Assembly: GCA_009693055.1 (NCBI GenBank)
Contig: SHYA01000001.1
Coordinates: 186,001-250,000 of the forward strand
Direction of reading: 5' to 3'
DNA from: Dehalococcoidia bacterium
Lineage (GTDB): Bacteria; Chloroflexota; Dehalococcoidia; Lucifugimonadales; SHYT01
Length of the DNA stretch: 64,000 nucleotides
Shown here: positions 35,405 to 59,722 of the stretch, piece by piece
Layout: every line of letters begins with the position of its first letter
How positions within the stretch are numbered: position 1 is the stretch's first letter
The notes under the pieces: generated by a model
Seen by the model: only the letters and a program-made list of their open reading frames with translations
Database searches by the model: none
Told to the model about the DNA's origin: nothing
Program-made: the position numbers and the translations under genes

Positions 35405-36130
35405 ATGAGCAAAGAGCCGGCGTTGCCGGGTGTGAAGGCGGTCTTCTTCGACCTGTTCAACACGCTCGCGCGCTTCTGGCCGCCGCGCGAGGAAGTACAG
35501 GCCCAGGCGTGTCAGGCGTTCGGCATCGCGCTTGACACGTCGCGGGTGGACCTGGGCTACGCGGAGGCGGACGCCTACATGACGCGCGAGAACTCCTCTG
35601 CGCCACTTCGAACACGCACCAACGCGCAAACGGACGCCTTTTTCGCCCGGTACGAACAGATCATCTTGAAGGGCGCGGGGGTTGACGTGGACCTGGCCGT
35701 TGCCGGTCAGGTCTGGCAACGGGTGCGACAGATCCCTTACGGCCTCACCCTCTTTGACGACGTGCTGCCTTCTCTAAGACGGCTGCGCCAAAAGGGGCTT
35801 GTCCTGGGGATGATCTCCAACCTGAACCGGCCGGGTGACGCGCTGACCAAGGAGCTTGGCCTGACGGGGACGCTCCACTTCGCGGTGACCTCGTTTGAAG
35901 CGCAGGCGGAAAAGCCGGACGCGGCTATTTTTCAGGCGGCGATAGAGCGGGCGGGCGTTCCCGCCTCGGAGGCCGTTCACGTCGGCGACCAGGTCTCCTC
36001 CGACGTAGAGGGGGCCAGAGGCGCTGGAATCCGGCCCGTGCTCATGGACCGCTACGGGACCGGACCCCGAGCCGCCGGCTGCCCCGTAGTCCACTCCATG
36101 GTAGAGTTGGAACGTCTCCTGGACCCATAG
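35405..36130 (+). CDS. HAD-superfamily hydrolase
   Basis: 241 residues, HAD subfamily IA with helical cap. Motif I is KAVFFDLFNTLARF (nucleophile Asp near residue 16), motif II MISN, motif III KPDAAIFQAA with Lys, motif IV VGDQVSSDVEGARGAG. Likely a phosphatase of small phosphorylated metabolites. The start at 35405 is chosen because the family begins shortly before motif I; the in-frame ATG at 35339 adds odd sequence. Lies next to the ArsC-like selenoprotein gene, 26 bases apart. Confidence 0.88.
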   Translation: MSKEPALPGVKAVFFDLFNTLARFWPPREEVQAQACQAFGIALDTSRVDLGYAEADAYMTRENSSAPLRTRTNAQTDAFFARYEQIILKGAGVDVDLAVAGQVWQRVRQIPYGLTLFDDVLPSLRRLRQKGLVLGMISNLNRPGDALTKELGLTGTLHFAVTSFEAQAEKPDAAIFQAAIERAGVPASEAVHVGDQVSSDVEGARGAGIRPVLMDRYGTGPRAAGCPVVHSMVELERLLDP

Positions 36131-36156: not shown

Positions 36157-36504
36157 ATGAACGCAGAGGCCAGGTTCTACGGCTACTCCCGCTGAGCGAC
36201 CTGCAAGAAGGCGCGGGAGTTCCTCGCGCGCAAAGGGGTCGCCGTCCAAGAGCGGGACTTCTTTCAGCTGCCGCTCACCGAAGTGGAACTGCGGGGCCTG
36301 CTGCACGGAAGGCCGGCCTCGGACGCCTTCTCCTGGAGGTCGCCATCGGTCAAGGCGCTGGGGCTGGAGGGTAAGCGCCTGAGCGACGCGGAGCTGGTCC
36401 AGTGGATGCTCAAGGAACCGAGGCTCATCAAGCGACCGATCCTGGTGCTCAAGGGGACAGTGTTCTTCGGGTTCCGGCCCGCGGAGCTTGAGGCGCACCA
36501 GTGA
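36157..36504 (+). CDS. ArsC/Spx-like selenoprotein, Sec at codon 13 (TGA)
   Basis: 115 residues when TGA 36193-36195 is read as selenocysteine: MNAEARFYGYSR-U-ATCKKAREFL. The family has Cys at this place (CxxC, as in Spx, or Cys of ArsC). The same frame continues as a normal ArsC-type thioredoxin-fold protein (KGVAVQERDFFQLPLTEVEL, then LLKEPRLIKRPILVLKG with the conserved Arg) to a TGA stop at 36502. AGGGAAAGG precedes the ATG. A SECIS-like hairpin follows at 36211-36229. Arsenate reduction versus another thiol reaction is open. Confidence 0.86.
36211..36229 (+). promoter_or_regulatory. Candidate bacterial SECIS element (ArsC-like gene)
   Basis: GCGCGGG-AGTT-CC-T-CGCGC: a 7-bp stem interrupted by one bulged T on the 3' side, with loop AGTT identical to the peroxiredoxin gene. 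The loop begins 23 bases after the TGA. Confidence 0.7.
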
Positions 36505-59602: not shown

Positions 59603-59722
59603 GCTCTCATCGCTCAACCCGCAGCATGCGGACTGACGATTTTAGCACCGGAGCGTGCTGTTCAGGCGCGTCCGGTTGCCGGGCTTCGTCGGGCCGGTCC
59701 CTTCACCACTCTAGATGAGCGC
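59603..59722 (-). promoter_or_regulatory. SAM-I (S-box) riboswitch aptamer controlling mtnA
   Basis: Reading the minus strand from 59722: GCGCTCATC (P1 5' arm), AGAGTGGTGAAGGGACCGGC, CCGACGAAGCCCGGCAACC, then GGTGCTAAAATC, and GATGAGAGC closing P1 at 59611-59603. These are the conserved S-box segments in the right order. P1 pairs at eight of nine positions. Together with the following terminator it should shut off the mtn-metK cluster when SAM is plentiful. Confidence 0.93.

Follow-up and report, generated by a model that had tools for sequence, protein, structure and literature searches.

The gene at positions 36157 to 36504 (+ strand) of the window, a 64,000-nucleotide stretch of a Dehalococcoidia genome, is, on strong comparative evidence, a genuine bacterial selenoprotein gene. 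It encodes a Sec-containing Spx/ArsC-fold protein of 115 amino acids with the N-terminal motif U13-A-T-C16. The sequence comparisons as a whole indicate that the in-frame UGA is probably read as Sec with the help of SelB and a downstream hairpin, and that the product is most likely a UxxC selenol/thiol oxidoreductase and no classical arsenate reductase.

In the window sequence and its translation, the frame opens with ATG at 36157, runs for 115 codons and closes with a terminal TGA at 36502-36504. Its sole interruption is the TGA at 36193-36195 (+ strand, codon 13), and the same gene uses TGA both at this internal codon and as its stop. When codon 13 is translated as Sec, the Pfam ArsC domain (PF03960) matches residues 8-113 above the gathering score (E = 5.6e-16); the frame is therefore homologous to the family on either side of the TGA. 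The sequence-only reading had proposed that, in a thioredoxin-fold protein of ArsC/Spx type, this TGA replaces the catalytic Cys, with all later family positions intact. Both proposals are supported: Sec stands in place of the first catalytic or redox Cys, at a column that has Cys in relatives, and the remainder of the protein, EPRLIKRPI included, is intact.

A six-frame search found the protein in 146 of the 197 genomes of the host's order, in almost every case with a single internal TGA, which excludes chance and sequencing error as its source. In the genes read, this TGA falls on the first position of UxxC, and the family alignment at the codon-13 column has TGA in nearly all relatives and TGC or TGT in the exceptions. 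In a second set of loci UGA occupies the codon in 100 of 108, and every exception read encodes Cys. Over every locus retrieved, 113 distinct genes have the Sec form at this codon and 11 have the Cys form. The nearest Cys form, from a genome (G042) of the same family as the host, is 57-59% identical to the window protein, has TGC at the codon and shares a polyprenyl synthetase neighbour with the window; no SelB scored over the cut-off in that genome. On a quick tree the Cys forms lie dispersed between Sec forms, and the tree requires at least seven Sec/Cys changes, an approximate figure given the few columns and many weak forks. One genus, represented by five genomes, carries the Cys form although it retains SelB.

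Downstream of the UGA, nucleotides 16-34 (36211-36229, + strand) are predicted to form a SECIS-like upper hairpin, GCGCGGGA-GUU-CCUCGCGC, with an 8-bp stem and a 3-nt loop at a fixed distance from the TGA. In the predicted minimum-free-energy (MFE) structure of the window copy, the full stem spans 36196-36242 (+ strand) and adds an outer stem (36196-36202 paired with 36236-36242). The apical loop begins with G in 109 of 113 Sec genes, and a G in this loop is a feature of bacterial SECIS elements (PMC1088965). The window stem has an MFE of −25.5 kcal/mol, compared with a mean of −16.2 in synonymous-codon shuffles (z = −2.6). The mean z over Sec forms is only −1.4 and some Cys forms are negative as well, so MFE against shuffles is by itself a weak test, and we relied instead on covariation at the fixed position. 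In an alignment of 34 Sec genes, 92% of cells are paired, double changes occur in six of the eight pairs, and compensatory (double-change) cells number 39 versus 12 in shuffles; pairing is lost when the partner strand is slid. The 113 distinct Sec genes have a mean of 7.1 of 8 pairs at this position, against a background over offsets of 3.1 (sd 0.7), and the offset of 15 nt ranks best of about 240 tested. The 11 Cys genes, in contrast, average 3.1 of 8 pairs there, and none of them has a hairpin with at least seven pairs. On this comparative evidence, the hairpin is a bacterial-SECIS-like element evolving by compensatory change. Bacterial SECIS elements are poorly covered by Rfam, and the lack of any Rfam match over the gene is therefore expected.

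The host genome bin contains SelB, SelA (560 bits), SelD (387 bits) and a tRNA-Sec with anticodon TCA (UCA). The host SelD gene (G000:C8:96878-97798) is itself a candidate selenoprotein gene, with an in-frame TGA in the context AHCAGUAAKF. The bin is 94% complete with an estimated contamination of 7%, and its rpoA gene is present in two differing versions, located on separate contigs and each next to a truA-like gene; two related organisms may be mixed in it. Across the order, SelB scores over the cut-off in 176 of 197 genomes, and about 133 of these 176 carry the UGA form, versus 5 of the 21 SelB-negative genomes (a hand tally that ignores kinship). The five UGA-form genomes that lack a SelB hit over the cut-off are incomplete or fragmented assemblies (completeness 55-92%), and the missing SelB genes are thus likely to reflect assembly gaps.

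The family is widespread in deep-branching Chloroflexota. Outside the order, a phylum-wide set of 400 genomes gave matches at E ≤ 1e-15 in 45, mostly with TGA, and named records carrying the family come from SAR202, Dehalococcoidia, other Chloroflexi and Syntrophaceae/Smithella. When genome contigs were queried with a single protein no match was returned, whereas an alignment query returned matches. In the Syntrophaceae/Smithella loci, from Desulfobacterota-type syntrophs, Sec genes of the family have this hairpin too, and their occurrence there suggests that the gene either moved horizontally or is an old one common to both groups. Gene neighbourhoods are variable. In the window, a gene for a HAD-family hydrolase (35406-36130, + strand, start approximate; PF00702/PF13419) ends 26 nt before the ATG of the Sec gene and is possibly co-transcribed with it; none of the other family loci retrieved has a homolog of the hydrolase gene next to the Sec gene. 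In some lineages the neighbours repeatedly include MutS/MutL, a molybdopterin oxidoreductase and others; in certain Dehalococcoidia lineages mutS lies upstream in 14 of 62 cases and mutL downstream in 15 of 62, with names judged by eye. Because no universal partner was found among the loci compared, function cannot be read from gene association. Elsewhere in the window, a SAM riboswitch (RF00162, 62 bits) lies at 59604-59721 on the − strand.

The structure prediction and alignment proposed by the sequence-only reading place the protein in the ArsC/Spx/YffB superfamily. Its AlphaFold2 model has a mean pLDDT of 92.7 and is nearest in fold to YffB (1rw1, TM 0.86), with ArsC-related proteins, Spx and ArsC also among its neighbours. 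Sequence profiles compared with solved structures score highest against Spx (84 bits), followed by YffB (59) and E. coli ArsC (about 43). In 136 aligned members, U/C13, C16, R93 and P94 are invariant. Several curated models score below their cut-offs: TIGR01617 (Spx) reaches 70.4 against 75.05, the Spx models NF002459, NF009885 and NF009210 reach 31-46 against 123-159, TIGR00014 (arsenate reductase) reaches 34.2 against 106.05, and NF041106 falls far short, with 22.5 against 85 bits.

Several other readings of the codon and of the protein can be weighed against these data. Sequencing error, a pseudogene and an alternative genetic code are ruled out by the comparative evidence. No observation was found in favour of taking the TGA as an error, as the stop of a pseudogene or as a codon reassigned to Cys or Trp instead of Sec. 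Such a reading is next to impossible, given more than 100 distinct genes with TGA and a covarying hairpin that the Cys forms lack, Sec machinery in the genome and a gene that itself terminates at TGA; the correction to TGC raised earlier as a potential refutation is excluded by the same genes. It had also been suggested that the selenol could raise reactivity toward arsenate. An arsenate reductase in which the selenol of Sec attacks arsenate as the nucleophile would be consistent with the Pfam ArsC match, with R93 at the position of ArsC Arg94 and with the listing of Sec-ArsC proteins (UxxS) in the literature (PMC1088965), and the window protein shares with classical glutaredoxin-dependent ArsC (TIGR00014) both the fold and the position of the nucleophile. 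Yet the score against TIGR00014 is about a third of its cut-off, and of the Arg60/Arg94/Arg107 triad of ArsC (PMC3169414) only the Arg94 equivalent is invariant, position 61 being mixed and position 107 being Arg in only 4 of 136 members. The UxxS/CxxS motif of the classical enzyme is likewise absent, and its place is taken by a motif with an invariant second Cys (C16). A search for arsenic-resistance genes, which the same suggestion called for, located neither the arsenite exporter Acr3 nor ArsB in the 94% complete host bin, and no ars gene is present among the recurrent neighbour clusters inspected. We therefore regard an arsenate reductase as very unlikely and the suggestion of raised arsenate reactivity as unsupported.

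The other suggestion was that the selenol could act as a redox switch, and here the results are divided: the UxxC pair fits such a role, but the features by which Spx contacts RNA polymerase are not conserved. In a Sec-based Spx-like switch, an Se-S bond formed upon oxidation would change how the protein binds RNA polymerase or some other regulator and so turn on a thiol-stress programme. The best solved-structure matches by sequence are Spx proteins, UxxC aligns with Spx C10-C13, R93 corresponds to Spx R92 in 136 of 136 members, R61 corresponds to Spx R60 in 93 of 136 (mostly Lys or Asn in the rest), and its genome has no other match to the ArsC/Spx family. The window protein also shares the RRP motif with Spx of B. 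subtilis and S. mutans (TIGR01617/NF002459). It differs from them in having Sec for Cys10 and in lacking the G52 loop, K62 and the C-terminal tail, and residues G52 and K62 of Spx, like the Spx-contacting Tyr263 of the polymerase α subunit, are of known significance (PMC2801614). In most family members the loop of the G52 polymerase contact is two residues shorter, and Gly is found in only 14 of 136; K62 is replaced by Pro in 118 of 136; no C-terminal tail continues past about residue 115; and in both rpoA copies of the host bin the α-CTD has Phe at the position that Tyr263 occupies in Gram-positive α. The TIGR01617 score also stays below its cut-off. Since the closest solved structures by sequence are Spx regulators, a regulatory role keeps some probability, but a Spx-like switch of this kind, the chief alternative to the oxidoreductase reading, appears unlikely. 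Less likely still is the particular variant in which a Sec-containing Spx relative uses an Se-S bond to sense oxidants and meets RNA polymerase, or some other regulator, by a surface other than that of G52.

We infer that the protein functions instead as an oxidoreductase because the Spx residues are only partially present, the Arg triad of ArsC is not maintained and neither acr3 nor arsB was found in the bin. YffB, which has been proposed to be a glutathione-dependent thiol reductase (PMC3169414), is the best fold match; YffB and ArsC-related proteins (PDB 1rw1, 2kok) resemble the window protein in length and in having one active-site Arg, although Brucella YffB has a single Cys in place of the UxxC pair. 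In the favoured explanation, SelB with Sec-tRNA(UCA) would decode the UGA at codon 13, aided by the hairpin that begins 15 nt downstream, to yield a member of the ArsC/Spx/YffB superfamily with one thioredoxin-fold domain. Its N-terminal UxxC site most likely alternates between the reduced form, with selenol and thiol, and an Se-S bond, and its most likely function is that of a small thiol:disulfide (selenenylsulfide) oxidoreductase. By analogy with YffB and Spx, R93 beside the active site would bind an anionic partner, e.g. a low-molecular-weight thiol or a protein thiolate.

The family itself has probably been recorded before, under the domain entry cd03032, which we take to be the Spx subfamily. 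The 2008 survey of the Global Ocean Sampling (GOS) selenoproteome lists an 'Arsenate reductase 2' assigned to cd03032 with a UxxC motif and 42 ocean sequences (PMC2398784). Both this family and the window protein are Sec-containing members of the ArsC superfamily with UxxC, a likeness drawn from the motif and the nearest-Spx match, and marine SAR202 is among the clades with the present family. In the available parts of that survey, 'Arsenate reductase 2' is a table entry, and the text gives no host, SECIS, neighbourhood or functional analysis. An 'ArsC-like' Sec protein has also been recorded (PMC1794560), and the UxxC motif of NF041106 is covered in a 2026 review (PMC13188914). NF041106 (ArsC_rel_Se_1, 'ArsC family (seleno)protein') has, like the window protein, an ArsC fold, UxxC and both Sec and Cys forms, but its low score places the window protein in a different subfamily. 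In the literature searched, from which subscription journals were mostly absent, no functional work on a Sec-containing Spx-like protein came to light. What the present analysis adds is the dominance of the family in the order, the covariation of the SECIS-like hairpin, the host range and the residue analysis.

As no curated seleno-model reaches its cut-off for the window protein, automatic annotation may cut such genes at the UGA. The occurrence of Sec and Cys orthologs in close relatives provides natural pairs for comparing Sec with Cys. If the protein were a regulator, redox control by selenium would extend to transcription. The host belongs to an uncultured and abundant order of Chloroflexota, much of which carries the Sec form, and because this form dominates the family, a redox protein of housekeeping-like character seems to have selenium as its working state there.
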